NCBI RefSeq assembly: GCF_019175385.1
Contig: NC_083346.1
Coordinates: 54,713,821 to 54,777,820 of the forward strand
Origin: Lycium barbarum
Lineage: Eukaryota > Streptophyta > Magnoliopsida > Solanales > Solanaceae
Direction of reading: 5' to 3'
Length of the DNA stretch: 64,000 bases
A program made the translations under genes and the position numbers. The notes beneath the pieces were generated by a model. The model saw nothing but the letters and a program-made list of their open reading frames with translations. It did no database searches and had not been told where the DNA came from. Position 1 is the first letter of the stretch. Each line of letters opens with the position of its first letter. Positions 150 through 52,997 of the stretch are shown here, one piece after another.

Positions 150-473
150 TGTTATATCCCATATTTTCATACATTGAGACGTATTAAAATAAACGCGACA
201 AGTTAAAGACAAGACTATCTTAAGATACGAAGTAGAGATTTTAAATTCCGGTTTCGTTTCAAGTCACAATTTACCTACAATTTTGTTTGGCATGGAAGTA
301 TTAATGGAAAAATTGGGATTAAACTAACCATAATTGGATTAATAAGTGGGATTGGAAAGACAAAAATCAGTCCACTTTTAAGCCATGTTTGGCCGTGCAC
401 TATAGTGGGATAGTCAAAGAATTATTGACCCAAGTTAGTGTGGTACACTTGTCCAAAGCATGGAGTGAATACA

Positions 474-480
474 TATAAAA
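474..480 (+). promoter_or_regulatory. E1 LTR TATA box
   Basis: TATAAAA lies about 325 bp into the 5' LTR, followed within 40 bp by a CT/AG-rich stretch typical of LTR transcription starts. The 3' LTR copy reads TATACAAAA at this place, so its promoter is damaged. The start site itself is not visible. Confidence 0.5.
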
Positions 481-2729
481 GAAAATCTGATTCACTCCAC
501 CTTAACAAAATCATTTCAACACTTCAAGAGAGAGATATAGTGATAGAGAGGGAGAGTCTCTCGGCTAGAGCTAGCCGAGAGAAAGGGGTCAAAAACTTGC
601 TCCAAATTTCAGTTTTCTCCACCAAATTTTACTCCTCACCTAGTGTACAAGAATGTGTATTGGTTGTTGAAAATAAACAAGAAGGTGTAGCACCTCAATA
701 GAGTGGAAAATTCGGCCAAAGTGTAGAGCAAGATTGTAAGGTAAGAATGCTTAGTGTTCTTGTATTGTATGATGATTTGAATGTGTAGTTCATGCATGTT
801 GTTGTTGGATTGTTGTTGTAGTTGAAGTAGAGAGTGAGCCGTGAGTGAGGTGAAGTCATGATTGAATTCATTTTGCATGTATTGGTGATGAATTGAATAT
901 GTACCAACATGGGTAAATGAACAATGACTGTAGAAGTTTGGTTGTGATGTTGCATGTTGGATATTGGACTGTTTTTGTTGAAATGAAAATGAGCCGTGTG
1001 TTGAAGGTTCTAATGAAGTCATGCTTTATCTTCTTGAACATGTATTGGAAATGGATTGAATGTACTGTAGTTGGATAAACGGATAAAAATCATGAAATTG
1101 TGGGAAGGGTGTTGTAGCCGTGAAAAAGGGACTGTGTTAGGGGAGATTTAGGGACTGTTTTGTGTCACATTTGGATTGTTGTTGTTATGGAAATTGTGGT
1201 GTATTGTATGCATGTTGAATATGTGAATTGAGGTGTTAAAGAAATGAAATATGTTGAAGTGTATAGGCAGTCCAAAATCGTGGACAGTTTTGATGTTAGA
1301 AGTGAATTTGTGGGTGTTGAATGTTGATTCTTGTTGCAAACGTTTAGTGAATGTAAAGTGCCATGATTCAAGTTAAAACTGAAATGATTGCGGGCTGTTG
1401 TAAGAGTGAAAATGATGCTAAAACAGTTCCAAGAATCATGAAAGTAATGTCATCAAACGTGTTGTGTTGTTGCAAGTTAAAACTAGAAATTTGCTAAGTA
1501 AGAATGGAAATGCTATGTGTGTTGATTAGCCGTGTGTATGAAACAATTTTGAATGGTGTATGGACTTCCCAAGTTCCCTAAGTCATGTTTAAACAAGTCT
1601 TGATTAATATATGAAAGAACGATTAGCAATGTTAGCTTGTAACGCTAGTTGGTTTGGAGTGCGAACGAAACGTCGTTTAAATTTTAGAAAGGAATTGTGA
1701 GCGTCAAAATACGTATTGAATTCCCTTGTAGACTAATTGTAGTTCTTCATATCTTGATATAGGATAAGTGTTTTTGGGCAGCAAGTACAAGTTAGAATAC
1801 AACTAAACGCTAAAGGTATGTAAAGCCTATTCCTTCTTTCTTTTGGCATGTCCTAGACGTAAGTATGAAATGATATGAACCTTGGGGTAAATTCTATTCT
1901 CTAGTTCCATGCATGACTTATGATTCTATATTTCCTTAATGCTATTGTCACGAGCCTACCATATGATTGACTAATGAATGATGTATAGAAGTTCCTACTC
2001 TTAAAAGATTGGCATGAATAGAAGCATACTTGACTTCCATAAACTACATCATGGAAATTGATACATGTACATGAAAGCTGAAACGTTCCTTGCTATGGCT
2101 TGTAATGAGAGTTGAAAAGAATTGAATATGATTATTATCCCAATACTTTAGAGCTGGTTAGTTGCTTATCTATTGAGTCTCAAAAGATGAATGGCTTATA
2201 TGTGGTTGCTTATTATTCTGCTCGTGCTTATCACTATATCCTTCACTGAGTCCCGGGCCAGGACACGTTTTCGTGCGCATGTTTATTATATTATTCACCG
2301 AGTCCCTCACTAGAGGGCCGGGACACGTTATATATATATGATGATGATATGATGATATGATGATATGATGATATGATGACATGATGATATGATGATATGA
2401 TGATATGGAGATGGTGGCCAGGAGGACATATATATATTCCTTATTACCGAGTCCCTCATTAAAGGGCCGGGACACGTACATATTTATGTTTTATGATGCT
2501 ATGATTATGAATACCGAGCCCCTCATTAAAGGGCCGGGACACGTTATATATGTTATATACAGAATAATTATGCAGCTTTGATTACGAAACGCTATAATGA
2601 CACTGATATGAGAATGACACAGATGAAATATGTTCAAAGGCAAGTTTTATGATGTTCTGGTTGTTGCATTGAGTCCTACATACCTTGTCTCAACATAAGT
2701 GTATTACTATGTTTCAAGCTTTACATGCT

Positions 2730-2790
2730 CAGTACATATTCCGTACTGACCCCCTTTCTTTGGGGGGCTGCGTTCATGCCCGCAGGTACA
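2730..2790 (+). promoter_or_regulatory. LTR double stem-loop with CAG|GTA donor-like site (E1 5' LTR)
   Basis: CAGTAC (2730-2735) pairs with GTACTG (2743-2748) over a 7-nt loop. A second stem, CCCCC (2750-2754) with GGGGG (within 2762-2767), follows at once, then GCTGCG and CCCGCAGGTA. The same block occurs at 21949-22010 in the 3' LTR and in every other complete Tekay LTR here, with paired base changes in the second stem. It would sit in the 5' leader of the genomic RNA. The role is inferred. Confidence 0.6.
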
Positions 2791-3125
2791 GACGCTCGTT
2801 TCGGAGATCCGCCAGCTTTGGATACCTATTCAGCTATTTTGGACTGCTCCCTTGTTCCGGAGCCTAGCTTGTGGTATAACTCCCTTATGTTGTATTCATA
2901 TGTGTTTGTTTGGGTACGGCGGGGCCCTGTCCCGCCATATGATATGGTCATTACTCTTAGAGGTCTGTGGACATCGGTGTGGGTCTGTTTGTAGTTGTTG
3001 ATGCGTTTTAGGTCTATGACTTATGTTTGGGGCGTACCCATTTGTAATGGCAGCCTTGTCGGCTTGCATATATATGTATGTTTATTATTTTGTATATCGT
3101 GGCAGCCTTGTCGGCTTGCGTAGGA

Positions 3126-3156
<31 letters not shown>

Positions 3157-3348
3157 TAAAAAGTGCAACTCCTCAAAAGACAGGTGTCTAAGCCATACAA
3201 AACTTGACAGCTTTAAAATAATGTCCTACCCGTTTTATGTACAAATGAGATCATGACATGCTAATTGCAAATGACTACAGTTAACAGATAATATGGGTGT
3301 CCAACTCGGGCACTAGTCACGGCCTACGGGGTTGGGCCGTGATAGAAG

Positions 3349-3360
3349 TGGTATCAGAGC
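3349..3360 (+). promoter_or_regulatory. E1 primer-binding site (tRNA-iMet)
   Basis: TGGTATCAGAGC starts 5 bp after the LTR end. It is complementary to the 3' end of initiator tRNA-Met, the usual minus-strand primer of Tekay elements. Confidence 0.92.
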
Positions 3361-3401
3361 GGTCCTTCCTCGGAGTGTCTACAGACCGTGTCTAGTAGAG
3401 T

Positions 3402-3441
3402 CTTGTTTATCGATGTGATGTGCACCACGTTTATAAACAGG
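3402..3441 (+). promoter_or_regulatory. E1 leader stem-loop with GTGCAC palindromic loop
   Basis: The outer stem CTTGTTTAT pairs with ATAAACAGG, the inner stem ATGTG pairs with CACGT, and the 8-nt loop is AT-GTGCAC (palindrome 3420-3425). It lies 40-80 nt 3' of the primer site. Equivalent hairpins occur in E2, E0, F, B and C. It resembles a retroviral dimer-initiation site; function not shown. Confidence 0.6.
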
Positions 3442-3562
3442 AAGCTACAGGACATTTAGGATGTCGTCTTTCTTTCTCATTCTAGATCGTGCGATAGAGC
3501 CTGAACCTAGGAAAGATTGTTTCTGACCTCTTTTCCTGTAGGTAGGTGCAGAATTGCGAGAG

Positions 3563-3973: not shown

Positions 3974-5187
3974 TCGACTACAGGTATATGAGACCTTATT
4001 GAAATTTCCTATGTATGTGCATTTGTTATAGATTGTTACCTAATCGCGGCAAGCGGAAATCAAAGGAGTCAACAACCAAGTAGTTACGAGTAACAATGAC
4101 CAAGGCGTTCCCACCCGTGGGAATTTCGGAATCTAGGATGGAAAATAGTTGCACGTACAGGTGAAAGTTGGATAGAAAGGGTACGTAATGAGAATTTATA
4201 TATACGGAATGACAAATTGGCCATCATTATGGTGAGTTATGGTAAGTATAGTAAGGAAACGGGTTGAATGGATATATTGCAGATAAGTCCAGTTAGAAAG
4301 TGTGCACAGAAGAAGCTAAAGGAACCAGTAACTGTAAACATAATATATATTAGACATACTACGAATGCTGCAGGTACGTTTGAAACCTGCAGTTAAGTAT
4401 GGAAAAGGAAAATAAACAGGAAAGGGTGACAGATACAGTTTGTGTTGGGTATACGAGGCAATTTCGTCATTTTTATCTTGCGATTGATATAGGAAGCCCT
4501 GTGCGGCTACGATACGATATACAAATGTATGTGTTGGCCCTGTGAGGCATTGTTGGTATTTCCTGTGTGCAGGTTTTGGGATAGTAAGAAATACAGAGGA
4601 AACTCTACCAAAATTTTCTGAGAAATAACAAGGAAATGACGTATAAGTTCATAATATTTTTGGAAAGTCGCGCCAATAGTAACAATAAGGTTTGACTAAG
4701 TCGCAAGTGCGTCTGACTTTGAGAGATAAGGATTAACCGACGAATTGATGGTAATAGTAATTATGAGGTCGGTATCAGCATGTTAAAAAGAAATGCTAGG
4801 ATAATTTGGAAGGGTTTGTGACTAAGGGATGATTTAGAAGGGGCCGAAAAAATCTTAATAGAGTGTTATATTGAGGTATCGACGGAACTGATAAGCAGGG
4901 GTAAATTACGACGAGTTTATAGTTAAAAGAAGAAATAGGATGATTGAGACAAGAGTGCAGGGGAAGAAGAATTATGACAAACACGAATGTATTGATAAGA
5001 CAGCTTGTGTGATATTATGGGTACGATTGACCAAAGGGTAAGTACGCCTACTCCACAGGGTGTAAGTAAACCATAGTAAGAGTCGTGAATAAGGCCAAGC
5101 AGTGTTACACTATAGGATTGATTACGGACAAGATATTACGTGAATATAACAAGTGTTGTGATAAGAATGAATAAAGCGTAGTGAGTA
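3974..5187 (+). other. E1 noncoding interior, 5' part
   Basis: There is no coding frame. Bases 4490-4625 resemble part of the E2 LTR near 8026-8130 (TTGGCCCTGTG..., GGAAACTCT...). Bases 4785-5187 line up with 27950-28350 of E0, so E0 and E1 share this noncoding interior. It stops at the E2 insertion point. Confidence 0.7.
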
Positions 5188-8100
5188 TGTTATATCCCGT
5201 ATTTTCGCGCATTTGGAAAAATTAGAAATAATCTTGACTTGTATGAAATAAAGTCATAATTGGTTACAGTTAACATAAGAGTTGTGCATGAAAGAATATT
5301 AATGTGGAAGTGTCGAGGAAGACTAAGGGCAAATTTGGAATTTTGGAAATTAGTTTCGGGAATTACAAAATTTGATTCACAAGTCATTGGGCTCAAAAAT
5401 TGAATTGAAATCAAAGCCCAAGACTTGAGGGGGTGGCCGGCCAAGTGAGGCCCAAGCCCACCACACTTCACAAATTTTTTCCATGTGCTACAATTAAATA
5501 TATAGTGGGCTTTATCCCTTAGACCCTTCAAGAAACATAGAACAAAGAACAAAGCAAACAAAGAGAGCAAGAAGAGAAGGTCACGGGTTGGCCATAGAAA
5601 ATTTGACCCTCACAAATCTCCCTCCAAAAATTATTATCTTGTGGTTTTTATACTAATTCAAGGTCCCTTAACAATGTGGTGTAGTTGGTTTGGAAGAAGG
5701 AGGACTTGGGTCTTCAAATTGACAAGTTACCCAAGTGAAGAAGATTGGAAGAAAAGGTAAGGATTCATTCTCTTTTATATGTTATAAAGCCTTTGTTTAT
5801 GTTGTATTAAGTAGAGATGAGTAGAAAATATGGTAACATGGAAGTTTAGAAAGTGGGTGTACATGTGTGCATGTGGCCGTGTATATGCATTATGATGTGT
5901 AGTTGGAATGAGTTGAATTTCATGTTTTATTTTAGTTGTGAGTAGGGTGGAATTAATATTGGAAAGAAAAGTCGAATGAATTTGGTGAAAGTTGGAAAAA
6001 CTACATGTTGGCCGTAGGGTTAGGTATGATGAAATGGAAATGGTTTAAATGTGGTTTAATATGTTAATTGTGTTGTTGTGATTCTTGCATTGTAAATGTA
6101 GGAAAAATGATGTAAGCTGCAGTGAAATGGAGTGTGAGAACTTATGCCGTTTGCCTATGATTTTATAACATTATGGAATTAAGTTGTTAGGGTGCAAACT
6201 ATGATGATTGTTGATGAATATAGAAGATGGAATTGAGTTATGAATGTGTATGTTAAAGATTAGAAGAACCGGATAAATTATGGTTGTGGCGGAAAGTGTA
6301 TATACTTTGTATATCTCGTGTATATAGTGTAGAAACGATATGAAATGCTTCTAAACTATGTTGTGGTGATCTAGATTGATAATGAATGTGAAATCGTCGA
6401 GATAAGTTTGAAAGTTAAGGTTAAAGTAAAGGTTATAGCATTATGTCGACAAGTAGAACTAGTTGTGCCATATTGTGTTTCTAGTGTTTGTTGTTGATGT
6501 TGCTGTTGTTGTTTGGGTTGTTGTTGATGATTGTGAGCCGAGTTGAATTCTCGGGGGTGCTATATGTATAGGGGAAGTGCTGCCGAAATTTCGGTAGACA
6601 AATATGAGTTGAATTGAATTCGTAGCATCTATAGCTTATAATTGGTAAATGTGACCATTTGCAGATTTTCGACGAAACGGAGAGTGAGCTTGGATAGGCT
6701 TAAAAAGCTCAAAAGGTATGTAAAGCTACCCCGATCCTTCTTTTGGCATGCCTAAGTGTATTAGGATCGAATTCGGGCCTCGAAAGACTTTCTGCCCCTC
6801 GGAATCCGCAAGTGAGAATATCACTTTTTCTTTCAGTAAGACTAAACTCTTTTGGTATGTTTTCTTGGAAATTATGCAAACCTTCTCTAAACTCCTTGGA
6901 AAGCTACAGAATGTCCGTAGAACCTTTATAGGTGACCCCATAAGCTTAAAGGGCGTAATTTGGACCCATCGCCTTGCTTGTCCCGAGGTGGGCCCACTAT
7001 TCCCGGTTTTGCCCTTAATGTTCTTATGTCTTCTTTTCGAATAGTTCTTAAAAGAAACGTTTAGACTACCATTCTAATTACCTAACAAACGTTGTTTTAA
7101 ATATTCCAGTAAGTCTGATAAATTGTTTTGATACTCGAAACACATTTACTATGATTCCTTCCGACTTCATTGGATCGGTTTGTCTTTGATATGCCTCATC
7201 GAGTCTATGGAAACATTCATGATATTTTAATTGCATTAGTCTCTCCCTACTCCATTCGTGGATGCCCCAATGTTTCCCACACTGAGCCCGGGCCAGGATA
7301 TGTTGTCAAGCGCGATCCTTTGCATTGTTCGCCGTGCCTCGATGTGAGGGGGCAGGTATACGCGTACATGGGTTTGTGGAGTATGTTGTGCCATGTACGT
7401 TTGTTCTGATATGATTTACTATGGCCATCTGATATGACATATTATGTTACGGGGTTATGCCCCTATTCTGATTCTTCTGTGTTGTGGCACCAGCGTCGGG
7501 AGGGTGGCCACGTTCTATCTGCCGAGTCCCTTGGCAGGGGCCGGATTTGATATGACATATGTTTCTGTACACACTCTGCATGTTTTGAAAATATGTGTTT
7601 GATACTTTGGATTTTCTGCTTACTTTCTGTACGTTCTGTACCGGTTATGATCTTGTTTCTGTAATTCAGGCATTGCATATTCAGTACATATTTCGTACTG
7701 ACCCCCTTTCCTCGGGGGCTGCGTTTTCATGCGGCGCAGGTACCGACGACAGGTTTGCTGATCCGTCCGCTTAGGATCTCCTTCTGCTATTTTTGGAGCG
7801 CTCTTTTATTCAGAGCCATCTTTTGGTATAGTATGTCACTTCTATATATGTATATTCTCGTTCATGGGTACGGCGGGGCCTTGTCCCGTCATATGATTCT
7901 GTCAGTCTGGTAGAGGTCTGTGGACATGTTTGTGGATTGGGATCTTTCTGTACAGCTGTGTGTATATGTTGTGTTTGGGCGATCCCATTCGCCGCGGCGG
8001 CCGGTCCGCATATATTTAAATGTTACTCTGTTGGCCCTGTGTGGCCTTTGTTGGTATTTTCTGCGTGCAGGGTATATGGGATAGTCCGTAAAACAAAGGA

Positions 8101-8231
8101 AACTCTGCCGAAATTTTTCTGGAGATTATCTAAATTGGAACTAAAGCCTTGTCGGCTTCTGCTATATACTAGAATGTGATTGAGTGCCCAGATCGGGCAC
8201 TAGTCACGGCCTACGGGGTTGGGTCGTGACA
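5188..8231 (+). repeat. E2 5' LTR (3044 bp)
   Basis: It starts TGTTATATCCC and ends GGGTCGTGACA before the primer-binding site. A TATA-like AAATATATAG is at about 5496-5505. A CCGAG-TTGAATT-CTCGG hairpin lies at 6538-6554, the 12-bp palindrome CCGAAATTTCGG at 6583-6594, CCGAGTCCC-type dyads at about 7280 and 7522, and the double stem-loop block at 7682-7743. Open frames of 60-100 codons in it recur in the 3' LTR only because LTRs are copies. Confidence 0.95.
7682..7743 (+). promoter_or_regulatory. LTR double stem-loop and donor-like site (E2 5' LTR)
   Basis: CAGTAC-ATATTTC-GTACTG (7682-7700) is followed by a CCCCC/GGGGG stem and then GGCGCAGGTACC. The GT at 7740-7741 after CAG is donor-like. 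The 3' LTR copy is at 15924-15985. Confidence 0.6.
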
Positions 8232-8235: not shown

Positions 8236-8247
8236 TGGTATCAGAGC
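8236..8247 (+). promoter_or_regulatory. E2 primer-binding site (tRNA-iMet)
   Basis: TGGTATCAGAGC begins 5 bp after the 5' LTR end. Confidence 0.93.
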
Positions 8248-8288
8248 GGTTCGTCCTAGGAATGTCTACAGACCGTGTCTAGTAGGGT

Positions 8289-8328
8289 CTTGTTTATCGG
8301 TGTGTTGTGCACCACACCTATAAACAGG
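8289..8328 (+). promoter_or_regulatory. E2 leader stem-loop with GTGCAC loop
   Basis: An outer stem of about 9 bp (CTTGTTTAT with ATAAACAGG) holds a perfect 6-bp inner stem GGTGTG (8299-8304) with CACACC (8313-8318) and the loop TT-GTGCAC (8305-8312). It is the cleanest copy of the kissing-loop-like hairpin in the window. Confidence 0.65.
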
Positions 8329-8434
8329 AGGCTACAGGGCATTTAGGATACTACCCTTCTTTCTGTCTTAGATCATGCGATAGAGCTGTGTTATCAAGAT
8401 GATTCCTCCCTAACGAATTGTTACATTTGCAGTT

Positions 8435-13407: not shown

Positions 13408-13442
13408 AACATTCGAGGACGAATGTTCTAAAGGGGGGAGGA
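13408..13442 (+). promoter_or_regulatory. E2 pre-PPT hairpin and polypurine tract
   Basis: A perfect hairpin AACATTCG-AGGA-CGAATGTT (13408-13427) is followed by the plus-strand primer tract AAAGGGGGGAGGA ending at the 3' LTR start. The hairpin-PPT pair recurs in E1, E0, C and F. Confidence 0.85.
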
Positions 13443-16400
13443 TGTTATATCCCGTATTTTCGCGCATTTGGAAAAATTAGAAATAATCTTGACTTGTATG
13501 AAATAAAGTCATAATTGGTTACAGTTAACATAAGAGTTGTGCATGAAAGAATATTAATGTGGAAGTGTCGAGGAAGACTAAGGGCAAATTTGGAATTTTG
13601 GAAATTATTTTCGGGAATTACAAAATTTGATTCACAAGTCATTGGGCTCAAAAATTGAATTGAAATCAAAGCCCAAGACTTGAGGGGGTGGCCGGCCAAG
13701 TGAGGGCCAAGCCCACCACACTTCACAAATTTTTTCCATGTGCTACAATTAAATATATAGTGGCCTTTATCCCTTAGACCCTTCAAGAAACATAGAACAA
13801 AGAACAAAGCAAACAAAGAGAGCAAGAAGAGAAGGTCACGGGTTGGCCATAGAAAATTTGACCCTCACAAATCTCCCTCCAAAAATTTTTATCTTGTGGT
13901 TTTTATACTAATTCAAGGTCCCTTAACAACGTGGTGTAGTTGATTTGGAAGAAGGAGGACTTGGGTCTTCAAATTGACAAGTTACCCAAGTGAAGAAGAT
14001 TGGAAGAAAAGGTAAGGATTCATTCTCTTTTATATGTTATAAAGCCTTTGTTTATGTTATATTAAGTAGAGATGAGTAGAAAATATGGTAACATGGAAGT
14101 TTAGAAAGTGGGTGTACATGTGTGCATGTGGCCGTGTATATGCATTATGATGTGTAGTTGGAATGAGTTGAATTTCATGTTTTATTTTAGTTGTGAGTAG
14201 GGTGGAATTAATATTGGAAAGAAAAGTCGAATGAATTTCGTGAAAGTTGGAAAAACTACATGTTGGCCGTAGGGTTAGGTATGATGAAATGGAAATGGTT
14301 TAAATGTTGTTTAATATGTTAATTGTGTTGTTGTGATTCTTGCATTGTAAATGTAGGAAAAATGATGTAAGCTGCAGTGAAATGGAGTGTGAGAACTTAT
14401 GCCGTTTGCCTATGATTTTATAACATTATGGAATTAAGTTGTTAGGGTGCAAACTATGATGATTGTTGATGAATATAGAAGATGGAATTGAGTTATAAAT
14501 GTGTATGTTAAAGATTAGAAGAACCGGATAAATTATGGTTGTGGCGGAAAGTGTATATACTTTGTATATCTTGTGTATATAGTGTAGAAACGATATGAAA
14601 TGCTTGTAAACTATGTTGTGGTGATCTAGATTGATAATGAATGTGAAATCGTCGAGATTAGTTTGAAAGTTAAGGTTAAAGTAAAGGTTATAGCATTATG
14701 TCGACAAGTAGAACTAGTTGTGCCATATTGTGTTTCTAGTGTTTGTTGTTGATGTTGATGTTGTTGTTGATGATTGTGAGCCGAGTTGAATTCTCGGGGG
14801 TGCTATATGTATAGGGGAAGTGCTGCCGAAATTTCGGTAGACAAATATGAGTTGAATTGAATTCGTAGCATCTCTAGCTTACAATTGGTAAATGTGACCA
14901 TTTGCAGATTTTCGACGAAACGGAAGTGAGCTTGGATAGGCTTAAAAAGCTCAAAAGGTATGTAAAGCTACCCCGATCCTTCTTTTGGCATGCCTAAGTG
15001 TATTAGGATCGAATTCGGGCCTCGAAAGACTTTCTGCCCCTCGGAATCCGCAAGTGAGAATATCACTTTTTCTTTCAGTAAGACTGAACTCTTTTGGTAT
15101 GTTTTCTTGGAAATTATGCAAACCTTCTCTAAACTCCTTGGAAAGCTACAGAATGTCCGTAGAACCTTTATAGGTGACCCCATAAGCTTAAAGGGCGTAA
15201 TTTGGACCCATCGCCTTGCTTGTCCCGAGGTGGGCCCACTATTCCCGGTTTTGCCCTTAATGTACTTAAGTCTTCTTTTCGAATAGTTCTTAAAAGAAAC
15301 GTTTAGACTACCATTCTAATTACCTAACAAACGTTGTTTTAAATATTCCAGTAAGTCTGATAAATTGTTTTGATACTCGAAATTCATTTACTATGATTCC
15401 TTCCGACTTCATTGGATCGGTTTGTCTTTGATATGCCTTATCGAGTCTATGGAAACATTCATGATATTTTAATTGCATTAGTCTCTCACTACTCCATTCG
15501 TGGATGCCCCAATGTTTCCCACACTGAGCCCGGGCCAGGATATGTTGTCAAGCGCGATCCTTTGCATTGTTCGCCTTGCCTCGATGTGAGGGGGCAGGTA
15601 TACGCGTACATGGGTTTGTGGAGTATGCTGTGCCATGTACGTTTGTTCTGATATGATTTACTATGGCCATCTGATATGACATATTATGTTACGGGGTTAT
15701 GCCCCTATTCTGATTCTTCTGTGTTGTGGCACCAGCGTCGGGAGGGTGGCCACATTCTGTCTACCGAGTCCCTTGGCATGGGCCGGATTTGATATGACAT
15801 ATGTTTCTGTACACACTCTGCATTTTTTGAGAATATGTGTTTGATACTTTGGATTTTCTGCTTACTTTCTGTACGTTCTGTACCGGTTATGATCTTGTTT
15901 CTGTAATTCAGGCTTTGCATATTCAGTACATATTTCGTACTGACCCCCTTTCCTCGGGGGCTGCGTTTTCATGCCGCGCAGGTACCGATGACAGGTTTGC
16001 TGATCCGTCCGCTTAGGATCTCCTTCTGCTATTTTTGGAGCGCTCTTTTATTCAGAGCCATCTTTTGGTATAGTCTGTCACTTCTATATATGTATATTCT
16101 CGTTCATGGGTACGGCGGGGCCCTGTCCCGTCATATGATTCTGTCGGTCTGGTAGAGGTCTGTGGACATGTTTGTGGGTTGGGATCTTTCTGTACAGCTG
16201 TGTGTATATGTTGTGTTTGGGCGATCCCATTCGCCGCGGCGGCCGGTCCGCATATATTTAAATGTTACTCTGTTGGCCCTGTGTGGCCTTTGTTGGTATT
16301 TTCTGCGTGCAGGGTATATGGGATAGACCGTAAAACAAAGGAAACTCTGCCGAAATTTTTCTGGAGATTATCTAAATTGGAACTAAAGCCTTGTCGGCTT

Positions 16401-16473
16401 CTGCTATATACTAGAATGTGATTGAGTGCCCAGATCGGGCACTAGTCACGGCCTACGGGGTTGGGTCGTGACA
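13443..16473 (+). repeat. E2 3' LTR (3031 bp)
   Basis: This is a near copy of 5188-8231, with about 40 scattered differences and a 12-bp shorter GTTGTT run near 14755. It ends GGGTCGTGACA at 16473, after which E1 resumes. Confidence 0.95.
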
Positions 16474-19375: not shown

Positions 19376-22300
19376 TGTTATATCCCATATTTTCATACAT
19401 TGAGACGTATTAAAATAAACGCGACAAGTTAAAGACAAGACTATCTTAAGATACGAAGTAGAGATTTTAACTTCCGGTTTCGTTTCAAGTCACAATTTAC
19501 CTACAATTTCGTTTGGCATGGAAGTATTAATGGAAAAATTGGGATTAAACTAACCATAATTGGATTAATAAGTGGGATTGGAAAGACAAAAATCAGTCCA
19601 CTTTTAAGCCATGTTTGGCCGTGCACTATAGTGGGATAGTCAATGAAGTATTGACCCAAGTTAGTGTGGTACACTTGTCCAAAGCATGGAGTGAATACAT
19701 ATACAAAAAAAATCTGATTCACTCCACCTTAACAAAATCATTTCAACACTTCAAGAGAGAGATATAGTGATAGAGAGGGAGAGTCTCTCGGCTAGAGCTA
19801 GCCGAGAGAGAGGGGTCAAAAACTTGCTCCAAATTTCAGTTTTCTCCACCAAATTTTACTCCTCATCTAGTGTACAAGAATGTGTATTGGTTGTTGAAAA
19901 GAAACAAGAAGGTGTAGCACCTCAATAGAGTGGAAAATTCGGCCAAAGTGAAGAGCAAGATTGTAAGGTAAGAATGCTTAGTGTTCTTGTATTGTATGAA
20001 GATTTGAATGTGTAGTTCATGCATGTTGTTGTTGGATTGTTGTTGTAGTTGAAGTAGAGAGTGAGCCGTGAGTGAGGTGAAGTCATGATTGAATTCATTT
20101 TGCATGTATTGTTGATGAATTGAATATGTACCAACATGTGTAAATGAACAAAGATTGTAGAAGTTTGGTTGTGATGTTGCATGTTGGATATTGGACTGTT
20201 TTTGTTGAAATGAAAATGAGCCGTGTGTTGAAGGTTCTAATGAAGTCATGCTTTATCTTCTTGAACATGTATTGGAAATGGATTGAATGTATTGTAGTTG
20301 GATAAACGGATAAAAATCATGAAATTGTGGGAAGGGTGTTGTAGCCGTGAAAAAGGGACTGTTTTAGGGGAGATTTAGGGACTGTTTTGTGTCACATTTG
20401 GATTGTTGTTGTTATGGACATTGTGGTGTATTGTATGCATGTTGAATATGTGAATTGAGGTGTTAAAGAAATGAAATATGTTGAAGTGTATAGGCAGTCC
20501 AAAACCGTGGACAGTTTTGATGTTAGAAGTGAATTTGTGGGTGTTGAATGTTGATTCTTGTTGCAAACGTTTAGTGAATGTAAAGTGCCATGATTCAAGT
20601 TAAAACTGAAATGATTGTGGGCTGTTGTAAGAGTGAAAATGATGCTAAAACAGTTCCAAGAATCATGAAAGTAATGTCATCAAACGTGTTGTGTTGTTGC
20701 AAGTTAAAACTGGAAATTTGCTAAGTAAGAATGGAAATGCTATGTGTGTTGATTAGCCGTGTGTATGAAACAATTTTGAATGGTGTATGGACTGCCCAAG
20801 TTCCCTAAGTCATGTTTAAACAAGTCTTGATTAATATATGAAAGAACGATTAGCAATGTTAGCTTGTAACGCTAGTTGGTTTGGAGTGCGAACGAAACGT
20901 CGTTTAATTGTTAGAAAGGAATTGTGAGCGTCAAAATACGTATTGAATTCCCTTGTAGACTAATTGTAGTTCTTCATATCTTGATATAGGATAAGTGTTT
21001 TTGGGCAGCAAGTACAAGTTAGAATACAACTAAACGCTAAAGGTATGTAAAGCCTATTCCTTCTTTCTTTTGACATGTCCTAGACGTAAGTATGAAATGA
21101 TATGAACCTTGGGGTAAATTCTATTCTCTAGTTCCATGCATGACTTATGATTCTATATTTCCTTAATGCTATTGTCACGAGCCTACCATATGATTGACTA
21201 ATGAATGATGTATAGAAGTTCCTACTCTTAAAAGATTGGCATGAATAGAAGCATACTTGACTTCCATAAACTACATCATGGAAATTGATACATGTACATG
21301 AAAGCTGAAACGTTCCTTGCTATGGCTTGTAATGAGAGTTGAAAAGAATTGAATGTGATTATTATCCCAATACTTTAGAGCTGGTTAGTTGCTTATCTAT
21401 TGAGTCTCAAAAGATGAATGGCTTATATGTGGTTGCTTATTATTCTGCTCGTGCTTATCACTATATCCTTCACTGAGTCCCGGGCCAGGACACGTTTTCG
21501 TGCACATGTTTATTATATTATTCACCGAGTCCCTCACTAGAGGGCCGGAACACGTTATATATATATGATGATGATATGATGATATGATGATATGATGATA
21601 TGATGACATGATGATATGATGATATGGAGATGGTGGCCAGGAGGGCATATATATATTCCTTATTACCGAGTCCCTCATTAAAGGGCCGGGACACGTATAT
21701 GTTTATGTTTTATGATGCTATGATTATGAATACCGAGCCCCTCATTAAAGGGCCGGGACACGTTATATATGTTATAGACAGAATAATTATGCAGCTTTGA
21801 TTACGAAACGCTATAATGACACTGATATGAGAATGACACAGATGAAATATGTTCAAAGGCAAGTTTTATGAAATTCTGGTTGTTGCATTGAGTCCTACAT
21901 ACCTTGTCTCAACATAAGTCTATTACTATGTTTCAAGCTTTACATGCTCAGTACATATTCCGTACTGACCCCCTTTCTTCGGGGGGCTGCGTTCATGCCC
22001 GCAGGTACAGACGCTCGTTTCGGAGATCCGCCAGCTTAGGATACCTATTCAGCTATTTTGGACTGCTCCCTTGTTCCGGAGCCTAGCTTGTGGTATAACT
22101 CCCTTATGTTGTATTCATATGTGTTTGTTTGGGTACGGCGGGGCCCTGTCCCGCCATATGATATGGTCATTACTCTTTGAGGTCTGTGGACATCGGTGTG
22201 GGTCTGTTTGTAGTTGTTGATGCGTTTTAGGTCTATGACTTATGTTTGGGGCGTACCCATTCGTAATGGCAGCCTTGTCGGCTTGCATATATATGTATGT

Positions 22301-22557
22301 TTATTATTTTGTATATCGTGGCAGCCTTGTCGGCTTGCGTAGGAATATTTATATATATATGTTGTTGTTTAAAAAGTGCAACTCCTCAGAAGACAGGTGT
22401 CTAAGCCATACAAAACTTGACAGCTTTAAAATAATGTCCTACCCGTTCTATGTACAAATGAGATCATGACATGCTAATTGCAAATGACTACAGTTAACAG
22501 ATAATATGAGTGTCCAACTCGGGCACTAGTCACGGCCTACGGGGTTGGGTCGTGATA
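19376..22557 (+). repeat. E1 3' LTR (3182 bp)
   Basis: A near copy of 150-3344, ending TCGTGATA. The dyad repeat block is at about 21475-21765 and the double stem-loop block at 21949-22010. It is followed by the CTTAT duplication (22558-22562). Confidence 0.94.
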
Positions 22558-26000: not shown

Positions 26001-26243
26001 AGGCTTGTGGACAGACATGTACAGTTAGATGTTTCGTACTTTTGAAGGTCCTCGTCGATGTATAATGTGCTAGTAAAGTTTGTTCGCCTATGTTTATAGC
26101 TATGCTACTAATGTTAATGTTAAGTGGCAAAAAAAAATGGTATAGGTCGTACGGCCCACTTAGTAATAAGGATATGATGCGAGATAAGGGGTACTCGGTA
26201 CAAGTATCGGGTACTCATCACGACCCCTAGTTGGGTCGTGACA
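23099..26243 (+). mobile_element. E3: solo LTR (3145 bp) inside E0 5' LTR
   Basis: The sequence starts TGTTATATCCCGC and ends GGGTCGTGACA, with a perfect target duplication ACATA at 23094-23098 and 26244-26248. No interior and no second LTR are present, so the element was reduced to one LTR by recombination. Inside are a 52-bp direct duplication (about 23871-23974), two covarying hairpins (24329-24345 and 24368-24382), the palindromic CCGGAATTTCGG (24413-24424) and the double stem-loop block (25786-25836). It resembles LTR G at 62078. No gene is present. Confidence 0.93.
25786..25836 (+). promoter_or_regulatory. LTR double stem-loop (solo LTR)
   Basis: CGGTAC pairs with GTACTG through one G-U pair. 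The second stem is CGTCC with GGACG instead of CCCCC with GGGGG, so both sides have changed together. GCTGCGTTTCATGCC and GCAGGTC follow as in the other LTRs. Confidence 0.6.
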
Positions 26244-26811
26244 ACATATTCCGTACTGTCCCCCTTTCTCCGGGGGGCTGCGTTTCATGCCCGCAGGTAC
26301 AGATAGCCGGTTGGTGACCCCTCAGGATAGGACTCCTACTCAGCTGTTTTGGGTTAGCTCCGTTGTTCCGGAGCCTAGACTTTTGGCATAAATCTTATGA
26401 TATATGTTTATCCAGGGGTACGGCGGGGCCCTGTCCCATCATATTTCGCTATTCATACGCTTAGAGGTCTGTAGACATATGTGTGGGTTGTGTATGAGTT
26501 CTGTTCAGCTGTGTCTATACGATGTGCTGTGGTATGATGTTCGTCTATAGTGGCAGCCTTGTCGGCTTGCATATGATATTGATATGTGATGGCAGCCTTG
26601 TCGCCTTGCGTATTATTTCATGATATGATTAGTTGTGACTCCTCAAGGGGTAGTTGATCTAGAAATATATATATATGACGATGTTACGAACTTTGGAGTT
26701 CCTTTATAAGTTTCCATATTGTCGTAGTTTCAGTTTGATTATTTTTAACAGGTTCATGTACGGGTGTCCAGTTCGGGCACTAGTCTCGGCCTACGGGGTT
26801 GGGTTGTGACA
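26244..26811 (+). repeat. E0 5' LTR, fragment 3
   Basis: It begins with the second ACATA copy and completes the interrupted hairpin (TTCCGTACTG, then CCCCC/GGGGG and CCCGCAGGTA). Two GCAGCCTTGTCG repeats lie at about 26550-26605. It ends GGGTTGTGACA before the primer-binding site. Confidence 0.9.
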
Positions 26812-26815: not shown

Positions 26816-26827
26816 TGGTATCAAAGC
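26816..26827 (+). promoter_or_regulatory. E0 primer-binding site with one mutation
   Basis: TGGTATCAAAGC differs from TGGTATCAGAGC by one base (G-to-A). Confidence 0.85.
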
Positions 26828-26868
26828 AGTTCATCCTCGGAGTGTCTACAGATCGTGTCTAGTAGAGT

Positions 26869-26908
26869 CTTATTTATCGGTGTGTTGTGCACCACATCTA
26901 TAAACAGG
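26869..26908 (+). promoter_or_regulatory. E0 leader stem-loop with GTGCAC loop
   Basis: GGTGTG pairs with CACATC (one G-U pair) around the loop TT-GTGCAC (26885-26892), inside the usual outer stem (TTTAT with ATAAA). The hairpin is kept although the element's coding capacity is gone. Confidence 0.6.
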
Positions 26909-27496
26909 AAGCTACAGGACATTTAGGATGTTACCTTTCTTTCATATCTAAGATCGTGCGATAGAGCCCAGCCATAGGAAATGAAATTCCTTATACTAAC
27001 CTTTGATTTCAGCTGAAGAACGACATCGACAGGAGAAAGCGACCGATGATATTGGCAGTTACAAGGTACACAGGTAAGTTACGGTGCGAAGGAGGCATGT
27101 TGGATAAGGTAAGAATATTGAAACATGATTGAAACGTTAAGTTAGTGGATCAAAGAGGAGGTGGATAAGAAAGTATAACAGAACAGATCGTCAAAGGATC
27201 AGGTACGTCTCGAGGTGCGATATGTGAGGTAAGTTCCGACACATTTATACCTTTTACTGGAAATTGAGAGCCCTGTGTGGCTATGACACGATATGATATA
27301 TGTGTATATATGTTGGCCCTGTGAGGCATTGTTGGTATTTCCTGCGTGCATGTTCTGGGATAGTAAGAAGTACAGGGGAAACTCTGCCCAAATTTTCCCA
27401 GAAGTAAGAAAAAGGAAGAGAATGAGATATAAGTTCATAATATGGTTTGAAGGTTGATTCCGATGGGTAAATTTATTATGTTTGACTAAAGCTTTA

Positions 27497-31312: not shown

Positions 31313-32733
31313 TGTTATACCCCGTATATTTATACGTCGAATTATCCGCAAACAAATCGATTCAAGTTAAAGGCGGAATTATTTTCGGACACGAAATAGA
31401 AATCAAATTTTCAATTTTAATTAAAACATAAATTGTTTATAAATTTTATTTAGTGTAAAAATATTATTTAGAAAAGTTGTTGGGTTGCTAGAATTGTTAT
31501 GGGCTGAATTGTGAGAATTTTATATATATATTTTTGTTGTTGGTATTTCTGTGTTAACAGGAGAATAATTGGAAATTCGGGTTAGGCGAATATATTGGGG
31601 AAATGCTGCCCGATTTTCGTTAAATCCTTAATAATGAAAAACCCTAAACGAGAATGTATAGGTTAAAGAACAAGTTCTATAAAGCGATGGACTACGGATT
31701 TACGAGCTAAAAAGTATAGCTACTGATGATAACATTAATTTTATGTTAAATAGGCTAAAAGAGCGACAAAGCGAACGGTTTTGCGATTAGTCGTCAACAG
31801 GTATGTAAAGTTGTCCCTTCTTTCTTTTGGCATGTCTTAGTTTTATGTGATGAATGATATGAACTTTGGGATAACTCTATTCATAAGTTCCGAGTGTGAT
31901 TCATGATTCTTATTCACTTCCTGATGCTAGAACTCTTAAATGATTGAGTTTCCCCTCGAGTCCTCTATACGTTCGATAGTAGTTGGTGTGTGAAAGTTCC
32001 TATTCTTAAAGACTCTGTAATGATTAATGTCCTTGACTTCCAACAATTGTTTTGCATTATCTTGGCATATGACGTATGATTCCTGATGCTTTATTTTGCA
32101 TAGTTCCTATTGACATCCATACTTACAATGACTATTGTCTTGATATTCGAGTGTTAGTTAGTCCACTTATTCTATTGAGTCTCAGATGATGATGTAGTTG
32201 CATATAGTTGCTCATGATATTCTACTCGTGCTTACTGTTATTGTATCAATCACCGAGTCCCGGGCCGGGTATGTTATCGTGCACAGTGTCGCTGCATTAT
32301 TCACCGAGTCCCTTACTAGAGGGTCGGGTACGGTATATGTATATGATGTTAGGATTATGGCATCGAGTCCCATGATGGGCCGGGTACGGTATACGTGTAC
32401 ACGACTTTATTCACCGAGTCCCATAATGGGCCGGGTACGGTATATGATGATATGATGATATGATGAAATGATGATATGATAATATGATCTTATTCACCGA
32501 GTCCCATAATGGGCCGGGTACGGTATATGATGATATGATGATATGATCTTATTCACTGAGTCCCATAATGGGCCGGGTATGGTATATGATAATGATAAGC
32601 ATGATGGTATTTCGTAAGGCACAGGTACAGTGATTTCTTGAGTATCATACTTGTCCCCTGGAATCTCTACTTCAGTTATGATCCTTTTTACTGTATTTCA
32701 TGCTCTATATAGTCAGTACATATTCCGTACTGT
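31313..32733 (+). repeat. E0 3' LTR, 3' end missing
   Basis: It starts TGTTATACCCCG and runs through the six CCGAGTCCC units (about 32250-32585) to the hairpin CAGTAC-ATATTCC-GTACTG (32714-32732). It then changes without warning into minus-strand element C. About 550 bp, present at 26260-26811 in the 5' LTR, are missing. Confidence 0.9.
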
Positions 32734-33867: not shown

Positions 33868-34455
33868 TGATGCAAGCCGAGTTGCCTCAAGGACACTTAC
33901 AGGACCGTCTCGTGGAGCCAAAGTTTGGATGATAGCATGGAGAGGACAAATGGGAGATGGAAGAGCATTAAAGTGGTCAACGAGCAAGGAAGGCTATGTT
34001 TGCAAGAGGCCACATTCGCAAATTAAAGATTTCCATCTCCACAAGACTAGCCAAACAAGGCCCTTGCCTCATTAATGGCATTTATGTAATAATAGGGTCT
34101 TCTATTATTTAGTTAGTATAAATAGCTAGTCTTTTATTTCATTTAGGACTTTTGATGAATTGATTAATTGATGAGTGATTTTGAGAGTTGTCTCTAGAGA
34201 GAGAAACTTGTGAAAGAGGCCATGGATGGCTCTTGTTTAATCTTTGATTGTTGAGAGGTTGGTTGCTTGGGAATTTAATTCCCTTGAGGTCAACTTAAGA
34301 GTTAGGTGCTAATTAGTTGTGTAATTAGGAGGTCACGACCTTAATATAGTTTTGGTTGCTTAATTCTGTCTAATCTTGTGTCTATCTTTCTATCTTTTCT
34401 TTCCCTTTTGTTTATCTTCTTAATTTCTCGCTTCCGCGTATCCGTTATTGTATCA
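33868..34455 (+). repeat. D 5' LTR (588 bp)
   Basis: It begins TGATGCAAGCCG and ends ATTGTATCA. A good TATA box, TATAAATA, lies at 34117-34124. It is followed two bases later by the primer-binding site. Confidence 0.94.
34117..34124 (+). promoter_or_regulatory. D LTR TATA box
   Basis: TATAAATA, kept in the 3' LTR at 48408-48415. Transcription is expected about 30 bp downstream. Confidence 0.65.
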
Positions 34456-38676: not shown

Positions 38677-41600
38677 TGTCACGACCCAGCCCCGTGGGCC
38701 GCGACTGGTGCCCTACTTAGGCACCTCAAACAAACTCACAACCCGATCATCGTATTCAAACCCAATCAAACTCAGCATATGTTGTTCGAGCTGAAGATTT
38801 ATAACAGACGTCACGCAAACACTTACCGAACCCTTATCTTAAGCGGTCGCCCGTTCAGATTAGTCAAATCAAAATCAGAAAGGTGGCGGAATATACGTCG
38901 CCCAAATGCACACACACATATACAAACTCAGAGGCCGACTTGGCCATAGTAGCGTACGGGCCGCTTAAGAACGCAAAACAGACTCACATACAAACACACC
39001 GGACCCACGACCCACAAATCTGACTACAGGCCTCTGAACAAAACAGAACATAGGAACATATGACGGGACAGGGCCCCGCCGTACCCACACATCCACAAAT
39101 GTACCGAACACACACATACAACAGAAGGTATGTACCAAAAGTAGGCTCCGGATCAAGAGGAGCTCTCCAACACAGCAGAATGAGTAGCCTAAACTGGAGG
39201 ACCACCCAAACGAGCTTCTGTACCTGCGGGCATGAAACACAGCCCCCGAAGAAACGGGGGTCAGTACGGGAGAAGTACTGAGTATGTAAAGCAGAAGGTA
39301 CAGAAATCACAAACACAACTGGAGTCAGAAGAAACAAACACGAACGTCAACGTAACAAAGCAAACCTGTGCGGAAGGCAAACGTACAAATGCAAATCAAA
39401 TCATGTATAGGGTTTAGGAACGTGGTCACCCCCGACGCTGGTGCCACAACACATCATAACTCCAGAAGTTTTCAAATCTCCTTACAGTCTCCAGACACAT
39501 CATATCACACACACATCACATCATCAGAACATATCAAATGCCATATCACATCATAACTCCATAAACGGTAACCGGCCCTATGGCGAGGCCTCGGAAACCG
39601 TAACACATCATAACTCCCGAATATGTTATAGCGCGCACGATCACAAAGTCGGCCCGGGTACCGACGAACGAAAGGATAGCAAATAGCACGAACGGAGTAG
39701 TGCAGAAACCATATGTATATCAAAAGTAAATTAACGGACTCAACATATAGTTACAGATGAGCACATACCGACGCCAGAGGGCTCGGAGTAGGAATCAGAT
39801 TGATCAAAATTTGTGTATAAAAGTTACGAAGTTCCAGACTGCCAGATTTTTAGAAAGCCGTAGATAGGTCATTTTCCAAAAATTTCACATTACTCGAAGT
39901 GCAAAACGTTCACTAACGGCATAGGAAGTTTCAAACGCACCATTGAGTCATAAACAAACGATCGCTGATCATAGCGGACACAAGCGAACCAAACAAACCG
40001 AATAAGGGAAGCCTCAGGGCTTGCGGGCCCACCTCGGGTCGAATTGAGGCGGCGAACACAAATCACAGACCTTAGGCTCCCTAGAGCCATCTACGAAAGT
40101 TTCGGAGAGTTTCGGACACAACAGCAAAAGTTATGACGATTCGAACATTCTTTTGACCAAATGCCACAAAAGGGTTCAATTGCGCTGGATGAATAGTACC
40201 CAAACTTGAACCTAAATTTCCAAGAGCAGAGTTACCCGCGAGATTCCGATCTTAACCTAGTATGACTAGGACATGCCAAAAGAAGGATAGGTAGGCTTTA
40301 CATACCTGGTTGGCGCCTTACGCTCGCCACATCGCGATTTCCGTTTCGTCCGAAAACTGCAAATGGTCACTTTTACCAGTTACTATTCATAAGAGTTAAC
40401 ATTTTCATCTTTCGGGCTATACTTGGCTACCGAAATTTCGGCAGCACTTCCCCTATAAATCTAACACCCCCGAGACTTGGCTCGGCTCAAAATACAATAA
40501 CAACAACAATCCCAAACATCATTACACAATAGAAACCACAATCAAACCGTACTAGCTTCAAAATTTCACCCTATTACATAAGTTGGTAATCCTATATTCA
40601 AACTTCACAATTCCAACTCATGTCCACATTATTGTATTCATTCATTCAAGATTATTCCACCACATAACATACAAGTTCCAAACCATATACAAAGTTTCTC
40701 AAAATCCATTACTTTCCCTATTTCATTCAAAACACCAAAAGTTACGACGAACATTCTAACTTGCGTCGTTTCATTCCGAATTCATTATCATCAACCCTTA
40801 ATCATATTTAAAGTCTTTAGTATCATAAATATACTATGATATACACAAATATACCAAAGGTATACACTTTCCGATAACGTCCGAAATCATTTTCTAACGC
40901 CAACTCAATTCTTTAATCAATCCTTTACGACATAAAGATCACAACAACACATTATTCAAACTAAACAAGATAAAATTCCTATGCCTTGCACCTCATGAAC
41001 TCACGGCCAAACACACCCTTCTTACACACACCCGCCATGCACAAACGCAACACCATTCCGAAATCTTCATGCTAATCCAATCACTAACACATATATATCC
41101 ATTTCATAACATAAAGACATAGAAATCTTACCTTGATCTTAAGATTCCGATTCGCCGCAAACGTCGCCCTTTCGTCAAACTAATTGTACCCCGTTGAAGA
41201 GGAGCTCGAGTACTTCATAATATGTGAAGAACAAGAATTTTTGGATCAATAAACAAGCTTGGAAATTTTCTTTTTCTCTCTTTCTCTCCTACGGCCGAAT
41301 GCCCCTATTCTTGGTGTTCTTGACTTTTCATCTAAGTTCTTGATAATTACAAGTAAAAGATGATATTTATCCTTTTTAAGAGTCATGTGCTATGCACATG
41401 ACATCAAAATAATGGGTTGGGCCTTGCAAAGGCCGGCCACCCTAATCCCTTGGGCCTAAATTTTTGTGTTGCATTTTTCTTGGCCCAATTCATTAAACGT
41501 CCCGTTTTGTAATTCCCGAAACTAATTTCCCAAATTCCAAATTTACCCTCGGCCTTCCCCGAGGTCTTGACATTAATGATTCCATAACCAACATAATCAT

Positions 41601-41687
41601 AACAACTCGAATCAAAATATTTCCTCAACTCACACAAGTCTTCTTTATTTCTCAATTTCCCGTTATACGAAAACACGGGACATAACA
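38677..41687 (-). repeat. F 3' LTR (3011 bp)
   Basis: Minus strand: begins TGTTATGTCCCGTG at 41687 and ends GGGTCGTGACA at 38677. The hairpin CCGAG-CCAAGT-CTCGG is at 40485-40470, the palindrome CCGAAATTTCGG at 40430-40441 and the double stem-loop block at 39220-39280. It contains no gene. Confidence 0.94.
39220..39280 (-). promoter_or_regulatory. LTR double stem-loop and donor-like site (F 3' LTR)
   Basis: On the minus strand CAGTAC-TTCTCCC-GTACTG, then CCCCC paired with GGGGG, then CCCGCAGGTAC. The 5' LTR copy is at 45398-45460 and has a 3-bp insertion between the two stems. Confidence 0.6.
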
Positions 41688-44648: not shown

Positions 44649-44754
44649 CTCTGCAAACACAACAACGGGTCAGATCAGAATGACCCTAATAGCACAGCTC
44701 TATCGCACGATCTAAGATTCCAAAGACAGCAACATCCTAAATGCCCTGTAGCCT

Positions 44755-44794
44755 CCTGTTTATAGATGTGGTGCACAACACATCGATAAACAAG
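44755..44794 (-). promoter_or_regulatory. F leader stem-loop with GTGCAC loop
   Basis: On the minus strand GATGTG pairs perfectly with CACATC around TT-GTGCAC (palindrome 44771-44776), inside the outer stem CTTGTTTAT/ATAAACAGG. Compared with E2 (GGTGTG/CACACC) one base pair has changed on both sides. Confidence 0.65.
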
Positions 44795-44837
44795 ACTCTA
44801 CTAGACATTGCCTGTAGACATTCCGAGGACAAACCGC

Positions 44838-44849
44838 GCTCTGATACCA
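44838..44849 (-). promoter_or_regulatory. F primer-binding site (tRNA-iMet)
   Basis: TGGTATCAGAGC on the minus strand, 4 bp from the LTR. Confidence 0.92.
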
Positions 44850-47800: not shown

Positions 47801-47865
47801 CCTCAACTCACACAAGTCTTCTTTATTTCTCAATTTCCCGTTATACGAAAACACGGGACATAACA
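44854..47865 (-). repeat. F 5' LTR (3012 bp)
   Basis: Near-identical to 38677-41687. On the minus strand a TATA-like GATAAATATC lies near 47544-47553. The palindrome CCGAAATTTCGG is at 46608-46619. It is followed by AGAAC and the resumed D frame. Confidence 0.94.
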
Positions 47866-48158: not shown

Positions 48159-48746
48159 TGATGCAAGCCGAGTTGCCTCAAGGACACTTATAGGACCGTC
48201 TCGTGGAGCCAAAGTTTGGATGATAGCATGGAGAGGACGGATGGGAGATGGAAGAGCATTAAAGTGGCCAACGAGCAAGGAAGGCTATGTTTGCAAGAGG
48301 CCACATTCGCAAATTCAAGATTTCCATCTCCACAAGACTAGCCAAACAAGGCCCTTGCCTCATTAATGGCATTTATGTAATAATAGGGTCTTTTATTATT
48401 TAGTTAGTATAAATAGCTAGTCTTTTATTTCATTTAGGACTTTTGATGAATTGATTAATTGATGAGTGATTTTGAGAGTTATCTCTAGAGAGAGAAACTT
48501 GTGAGAGAGGCCATGGATGGCTCTTGTTTAATCTTTGATTGTTGAGAGGTTGGTTGCTTGGGAATTTAATTCCCTTGAGGTCAACTTAAGAGTTAGGTGC
48601 TAATTAGTTGTGTAATTAGGAGGTCAAGACTTTAATATAGTTTTGGTTGCTTAATTCTCTCTAATCTTGTGTCTATCTTTCTATCTTTTCTTTCCCTTTT
48701 GTTTATCTTCTTAATTTCTCGCTTCCGCGTATCCGTTATTGTATCA
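48159..48746 (+). repeat. D 3' LTR (588 bp)
   Basis: Same length as the 5' LTR with about 11 substitutions. It is followed by CACTC (48747-48751). Confidence 0.94.
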
Positions 48747-52954: not shown

Positions 52955-52997
52955 ACTCTACTAGACACGGCTCGTAGACACCTCCTAAGACCGAACT

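Follow-up and report, generated by a model that had tools for sequence, protein, structure and literature searches.

Plant LTR retrotransposons can form most of a genome, and how their genomic RNAs are chosen and paired has been little studied. A hairpin whose tip occupies positions 8289-8328 of the 64-kb stretch of Lycium barbarum DNA analysed here (called the window throughout) brings this question down to a single locus: does a stem-loop with a self-complementary loop, placed between the primer-binding site and gag of a Ty3/gypsy element, join two genomic RNAs in the way of a retroviral dimer-initiation site (DIS)? A concrete element of 68 nt that is present in thousands of copies makes the pairing of genomic RNA a testable matter. 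There is good support for a conserved hairpin of the sense-strand RNA, with a loop that can pair with itself, between primer site and gag; this holds for copies across the genome, too, and for an element in which no gag was detected. Its role is probably that of a cis-acting dimerisation or packaging signal of chromovirus-type Ty3/gypsy elements, working like a retroviral DIS.

Six leaders of chromovirus-type Ty3/gypsy elements occur in the window, each with the hairpin. Three are on the forward strand (E1, E2 and E0) and three on the reverse strand (F, B and C). A scan of the window for the primer site TGGTATCAGAGC with at most one mismatch returned seven sites, which we take to be matches to the initiator tRNA-Met. 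The hairpin follows six of them; the seventh (34458) is without it and is part of another element. An LTR-like direct repeat (33868-34455 and 48159-48746, 98.1% identical) encloses F between its two copies, and the first copy is followed by this seventh site. According to PMC6317226, a tRNA-Met primer is used in most chromoviruses.

Paired LTRs were delimited for E1 (150-3344 and 19376-22557, 98.2% identical), for E2 (5183-8231 and 13438-16473, 98.3% identical), which is nested in E1, and for F (38677-41687 and 44854-47865, 99.1% identical). The pooled open frames of E2 and B contain the Pfam domains of Gag, zinc knuckle, protease, reverse transcriptase and RNase H, and also an integrase zinc-binding domain, a Tf2-1-like SH3 domain and a chromodomain; this chromovirus set belongs to the two elements combined, as no single frame has all domains. 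The CCHC zinc knuckle of Gag passes the Pfam curated cut-off in B and narrowly misses it in E2. The clade name Tekay is a label of the earlier note on this DNA, and the domain evidence obtained here is for the chromovirus type.

In E2, the primer-binding site (8236-8247, forward strand) is followed by a 68-nt stem-loop at 8275-8342 (minimum-energy and centroid fold, z -4.3), composed of a lower stem, a 2x2 purine internal loop, a middle stem, an inner stem and an 8-nt loop with the palindrome GTGCAC at 8307-8312. On the same strand, the 68-nt stem-loop of E1 spans 3388-3455 (z -4.8; tip 3402-3441, GTGCAC 3420-3425, primer site 3349-3360) and that of E0 spans 26855-26922 (z -4.0; tip 26869-26908, GTGCAC 26887-26892, primer site 26816-26827 with one mismatch). 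On the reverse strand, F carries a 68-nt stem-loop at 44741-44808 (z -5.0; tip 44755-44794, GTGCAC 44771-44776, primer site 44838-44849), B a 67-nt one at 52902-52968 (z -4.3; tip 52916-52954, GCGCGC 52932-52937, primer site 52998-53009) and C a 67-nt one at 58925-58991 (z -2.4; tip 58939-58977, GCGCGC 58955-58960, primer site 59021-59032).

All six hairpins reported in the earlier note were thus recovered at the same positions. Their tips start 41-43 nt past the 12-nt primer site, within the distance of 40-90 nt given there, and the loop has the described form of eight nucleotides, two bases plus a palindrome that reads GTGCAC in four of the six and GCGCGC in two. The two bases 5′ of the palindrome are UU (AU in E1), and there is no loop base on its 3′ side. 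The two-part stem of the earlier description is present as the tip, but the whole structure is larger: it measures 67-68 nt, begins 27-29 nt after the primer site and comprises two further helices. With the six leaders as input, RNAalifold adds two helices below the tip, one of four and one of six pairs, and this extension contains one A-A mismatch in addition to the 2x2 purine internal loop.

For E1, E2, E0, F and C, the minimum-energy fold and the centroid both give the complete unit; in B, the two folds differ only near the bulge. The inner stem of C has just four pairs in the minimum-energy fold, and in the register of the earlier note its pair probability is only 0.08-0.09. When the leader is folded in four contexts (230 to 700 nt), mean pair probability is at least 0.87 for the middle stem and the loop is unpaired with a mean probability of 0.80-1.00, while the lower stem is less certain (0.31-0.96). 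The sense RNA folds more stably than the antisense RNA in all six cases, with energies of -24.5 to -31.6 kcal/mol vs -15.5 to -25.1 kcal/mol. The loop self-duplex has a computed energy of -7.9 kcal/mol for GTGCAC and of -10.9 kcal/mol for GCGCGC, and in a simple cofold the passage from two stem-loops to an extended duplex gains 10.4-19.3 kcal/mol; energies of this kind are favourable for any hairpin with a palindromic loop and are no proof of function.

Hairpins of this shape are infrequent by chance. A local-fold scan of both strands of the window for simple hairpins of -20 kcal/mol or lower, with a palindrome within a loop of 6-10 nt, returned nine loci, namely these six plus three more with their starts at 11002, 16770 and 22746. 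In ten shuffles of the window, each of 64 kb and scanned on one strand, the matches numbered 0-9 per shuffle and 38 in total, and at this rate such a hairpin in one 200-nt leader is roughly a 1% event. Since the six copies are homologous, the evidence lies in conservation and not in six independent draws. A first, looser scan was too permissive to use (230 forward-strand matches, 90 of them palindromic; 365 and 35 in four shuffles, with AT runs among the palindromic matches listed). When the window was searched by covariance model without filters, the only clear matches were the six copies and their antisense images, the next best match having an E-value of 0.04. No Rfam family reached its gathering score in the window; a match to RyhB near E2 was far below the cut-off and was discarded.

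Among the six leaders, conservation between primer site and gag is highest in the stem-loop, where mean pairwise identity is 0.89. Upstream, identity is 0.78 in the adjacent 13 columns and 0.61 in the 16 columns before these; downstream, it is 0.58 in the next 27 columns, 0.79 in a 12-column box and 0.37 in the last 33 columns. Stop codons in all three frames of the 200 nt past the primer site indicate that the region is not coding. In the 200 nt that begin at the primer site, the six leaders have a single hexamer palindrome in common by position, namely that of the loop. A hand count on an assumed tree found 13 transitions, of which 2 break a pair and 5.5 would be expected to do so at random (binomial p 0.04), the reference structure being derived from the same sequences. 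Covariation, which the earlier note had put forward for the inner stem, is weaker than implied there: in the six copies it is not significant, as 84 of 500 shuffles scored as high, and 72 of 500 did so in a second run. A second conserved leader box, ATCGTGCGAT, occurs in five of the six copies (columns 144-153 of the six-leader alignment) and is self-complementary if G-U is allowed; its E2 version is ATCATGCGAT at 8372-8381. It is possibly a second dimer contact.

Beyond the window, which lies on the 125-Mb contig C10, the genome (1.67 Gb, 164 contigs) was searched with patterns that fix stem letters and leave the loop hexamer free. The pattern of the first frame matched 7293 + 7428 = 14,721 places and that of the B/C frame 2449 + 2483 = 4,932 places; the reversed-pattern controls both gave 0. 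A primer site with at most two mismatches lies no more than 90 nt upstream in 28 of the first 30 places, and all 26 pairs are intact in 22 of these 30, some pairs being fixed by the pattern. The 21 distinct genome places closest to E2 have identical tips, as nearest copies should. Viral contigs, other genome contigs and a protein-guided viral scan contained no related locus, so all further copies come from the window's own genome. At C1:63206177-63221323, four hairpin copies in the same direction follow each other at a spacing of ~5.04 kb, probably as a tandem array.

The free hexamer makes it possible to read which loops the genome carries. Among the first 100 places in contig order, all of them copies with the pattern-fixed letters intact, 87 of the first frame have strict palindromes (84 GTGCAC, 3 GCGCGC), and the corresponding list of the B/C frame contains 75, all GCGCGC. 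When G-U pairs are included, self-pairing loops amount to 92 and 84 of the 100 places listed. The statement in the earlier note that the loop is never a non-palindrome holds for the six copies, but not for the genome, where 13 and 25 of the 100 listed copies lack a strict palindrome. Thirty of the 38 other loops in the two lists are one letter off GTGCAC or GCGCGC. Loop decay after insertion looks neutral, as expected, and it is the multiplying lineages which hold the information; these carry GTGCAC, GCGCGC and, in fewer cases, GTGCGC.

Exact loop counts in the first frame are 480 for GCGCGC, 112 for GTGCGC and 55 for GCGCAC. The last two are mirror single steps for which equal frequency is expected without selection: GTGCGC retains self-pairing through G-U, whereas GCGCAC breaks the pairing. 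The difference of 112 vs 55 corresponds to p 1e-5 if copies are assumed to be independent, which they are not. Judged by eye, tips of the type GGG...ACT account for 49 of the 100 places listed for GTGCGC and for 19 of the 55 with GCGCAC; for tips of the type CGG...ATC, the numbers are 24 of 100 and 16 of 55. The excess of GTGCGC may therefore reflect descent, as it sits mainly in one sublineage (GGG...ACT). Single steps in the B/C list show no excess of pair-keeping forms (7 keep a wobble pair vs 10 that break the pair).

A larger alignment (A4) of 65 rows unites 59 distinct leaders out of 70 fetched with the window's six. Five leaders (L074-L078) were taken from the places listed for GTGCGC, and another 15 (L059-L073) were chosen among the 100 listed places because their tips were of the GGG type or odd; sampling for A4 was therefore not random. 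In A4, 95.5% of cells are paired vs 95.2 +- 0.1% after shuffling (8 of 500 shuffles as high) and the covariation score is equalled by 5 of 500 shuffles; for both measures, relatedness alone can yield low counts. The two more robust measures, pairs in which both partners changed (377 of 500 shuffles) and further pair types (365 of 500), do not rise above the shuffles. Over the 65 leaders, too, covariation is weak. Outside the pattern-fixed positions, 130 deviations keep the pair and 76 break it; 31 of these 76 fall in three lower-stem columns in which some copies, having a one-base deletion, are out of register.

A quick tree of 96 leaders, computed with the loop hexamer removed, requires at least three changes between GTGCAC and GCGCGC; 11 of its 91 inner branches are well supported, and its 20 leaders of the B/C frame were hand-picked for diversity. 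An independent-pairs test of the loop switch on this tree had too few pairs. GCGCGC and GTGCAC are separated by two transitions, each of which is a CpG decay. Once both CpGs have decayed, 2 of the 4 outcomes are palindromic, and the 15 two-transition neighbours include 3 palindromes. Because two CpG decays produce it and half of the outcomes are palindromic, the double loop change is weaker evidence than it appears, and the switch alone is modest evidence. The wobble form GTGCGC provides a path between the two words along which self-pairing is kept throughout. One leader (L083) groups with the B/C clade and yet has an E-type tip; it possibly arose by recombination between co-packaged RNAs.

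The stretch between hairpin and gag contains a second type of signal. In E2, F and B, the gag ATG lies 2 nt after a YAG, which is preceded at 20 nt by a CTRAY motif. In E2, this branch-point-like CTAAC and 3′ splice-site-like CAG, whose function we infer, extend over 8410-8432 on the forward strand; the gag ATG is at 8435 and the gag frame has an early stop. On the reverse strand, F has CTGAC to CAG at 44651-44673 (gag ATG 44648), B has CTAAT to CAG at 52810-52832 (gag ATG 52807) and C, with the same spacing, has CTAAT to CAG at 58832-58854. The spacing is 14 nt in E0 (CTAAC to CAG, 26996-27012, forward strand) and 16 nt in E1 (CTGAC to TAG, 3523-3541, forward strand). Dinucleotide shuffles of the six stretches contain such a pair at a frequency of 0.06-0.11 each. 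Downstream of the hairpin, 51 of the 70 fetched leaders have a CTRAY after which the first AG is a YAG, vs 103 of 1400 mononucleotide shuffles. The branch point and 3′ splice site are conserved though the neighbouring sequence is not. With these two signals directly before gag, primer site and hairpin may be intronic. A donor search with an approximate matrix found no strong GT site at a conserved position; among the candidates, a weak CAG/GTA in the LTR is the best conserved.

Elements without gag carry the hairpin as well. The interior of E1 gave no gag match at 1e-4 with the E2 and B gag queries, and parts of reverse transcriptase, RNase H and integrase were detected in it. Ten selected open frames (seven of E1, three of E0) had no Pfam match better than E 0.19. 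CTTAT on both flanks of E1, along with an unoccupied-like sequence at 32141-32200, indicates that E1 inserted as an element, and we infer that it was already gag-less when moving. E0 has parts in common with the E1 interior at 75-81% identity; E1 (150-22557) and E0 perhaps represent a gag-less sublineage. Both retain primer site and hairpin. The BARE elements of barley belong to the Ty1/copia superfamily, unlike the Ty3/gypsy leaders described here. BARE1 and BARE2 are similar to our elements in that a plant LTR element has dimerisation and packaging signals, and BARE2, which is unable to make Gag, retains these signals and is packaged in trans (PMC3735527). Separate RNA pools, with splicing for Gag, are a further parallel to the arrangement proposed here. 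By analogy, retention of the hairpin in E1 and E0 would fit a cis signal used in trans.

The HIV-1 DIS hexamer is GCGCGC or GUGCAC, with GUGCGC also prevalent (PMC5874298, PMC516451), and HIV-1 is reported to prefer these three words (PMC5874298); the two sources confirm that the loop words are those of HIV-1, as the earlier note had it. Like SL1 of HIV-1, which harbors the DIS, the plant hairpin lies between primer site and gag, all three hexamer forms occur here too, and beneath the tip the stem is interrupted by an internal loop (known as loop B in SL1, PMC516450). Several features differ. The flanking purines of SL1 are absent in the 8-nt plant loop with its 5′ UU or AU and no 3′ base, the internal loop is of the 2x2 type, and the plant hairpin is probably upstream of a splice acceptor whereas SL1 is upstream of the major donor. 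No sequence homology is claimed between the two.

Dimer sites based on palindromes or loops have been proposed for the yeast elements Ty1 and Ty3, and BARE signals are mentioned as well (PMC5454406, PMC11381356, PMC4974528, PMC3735527). Ty3 is likewise of the Ty3/gypsy type; close to the 5′ end of its RNA, a hairpin carries a palindrome towards its apex, and deletion of this DS/PAL6 site abolished dimerisation in vitro (PMC11381356). The Ty3 palindrome CUGCAG is located in gag on a short hairpin, whereas that of the plant elements has other letters and is presented by a long stem in the untranslated leader. For Ty1, likewise an LTR retrotransposon RNA with proposed loop-loop dimerisation near the 5′ end, two different complementary hairpins are proposed (PMC5454406), in contrast to the one self-complementary loop found here. 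The fungal copia element GalEa has a conserved hairpin directly after the 5′ LTR, but there the palindromic letters contribute to the stem, and GalEa elements are without a classical primer site (PMC5445492). A literature search, in which titles and starts of abstracts were listed and few subscription journals were covered, found no such hairpin described in plant Ty3/gypsy elements; six leader words had no occurrence in a text search of papers, and the main text of a 2025 review of the plant LTR retrotransposon life cycle (PMC12786077) contains the word 'dimer' 0 times. Retroviral DIS hairpins are known.

Other explanations have to be weighed against a dimerisation signal. The hairpin could be a structured leader element with another job, such as binding Gag without kissing, controlling translation or shunting ribosomes around the leader, placing the primer or exporting the RNA, in which the palindrome is ancestral and the second word arose by CpG decay. 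This would account for a lower stem whose two sides (identity 0.95 and 0.92) are more conserved than the tip hairpin (0.86), and it is compatible with a loop switch through CpG decay and with single-step decay in B/C copies that shows no bias to self-pairing forms. Two to four ATGs within 200 nt past the primer site, upstream of the gag start, also agree with it. However, self-complementary loops prevail in two divergent frames, the tree contains at least three palindrome switches, and no other palindrome is common to the six leaders; we therefore regard a different job as rather unlikely.

The acceptor directly before gag leads to another reading, in which the hairpin mainly regulates splicing of the leader intron, for instance by keeping some RNA unspliced. 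The enrichment of branch point and YAG over the shuffles speaks for it, but no convincing donor was found and splicing control gives no reason for a self-complementary loop, so that we consider it improbable. Finally, the near-palindrome is present in DNA as well and antisense folds are also stable in several copies, as would be the case for an inverted repeat which acts at the DNA level as a protein-binding or replication feature. To this we attach very little weight, because the tip stems contain 11 pairs of the G-U type and 2 of the A-C type, the sense strand gives the better fold in six of six, and the location between primer site and gag places the stretch necessarily in genomic RNA.

Under the probable role as a dimerisation or packaging signal, a sequence of events can be proposed. 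The long multi-part stem, the computed part of the scheme, presents the six-base self-complementary sequence in the 8-nt loop. Two such loops on unspliced genomic RNAs would kiss, and Gag with its CCHC zinc knuckle would convert the kissing complex to an extended duplex; the dimer would then be packaged and subsequently reverse transcribed. In the spliced gag mRNA, as branch point and 3′ splice site suggest, primer site and hairpin would have been removed with the intron, so that only unspliced RNA would carry the signal. The splice acceptor would in this manner offer a simple way to restrict packaging to unspliced RNA. If the loops do kiss, a virus and a plant element would have converged in their use of palindromes, and loop chemistry, not ancestry, would select these words. 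We advance only tentatively, and with some doubt, the fuller scenario in which the HIV-1 kissing words evolved independently, primer site and dimer signal are intronic, splicing sorts out the gag mRNA and the gag-less E1 rides along.

The LTRs of these elements contain a further structured module. It consists of three adjacent hairpins ending in CAGGTA, a sequence that in the 5′ LTRs precedes the primer site by 380-563 nt, and was recognised at 2727-2794, 7680-7747, 15922-15989, 21946-22013 and 26238-26305 on the forward strand and at 39215-39282, 45392-45459, 53381-53448 and 59442-59509 on the reverse strand. CAG/GTA closes the module in all nine recognised LTR copies, the search pattern itself demanding GGTA. 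A MAFFT alignment of the LTR block (A3) had the stems out of register and was excluded from the counts. The nine copies show no folding preference for the sense strand. The three-hairpin fold is the minimum in seven of nine copies (the exceptions are E0 and the 5′ LTR of F) and is weak in C. Between lineages, the stems shift in step, from CCCCC/GGGGG to CGTCC/GGACG and from CTGCG/CGCAG to CTGTG/CACAG. The module also occurs upstream, in a strict form, at 19 of 30 genome loci.
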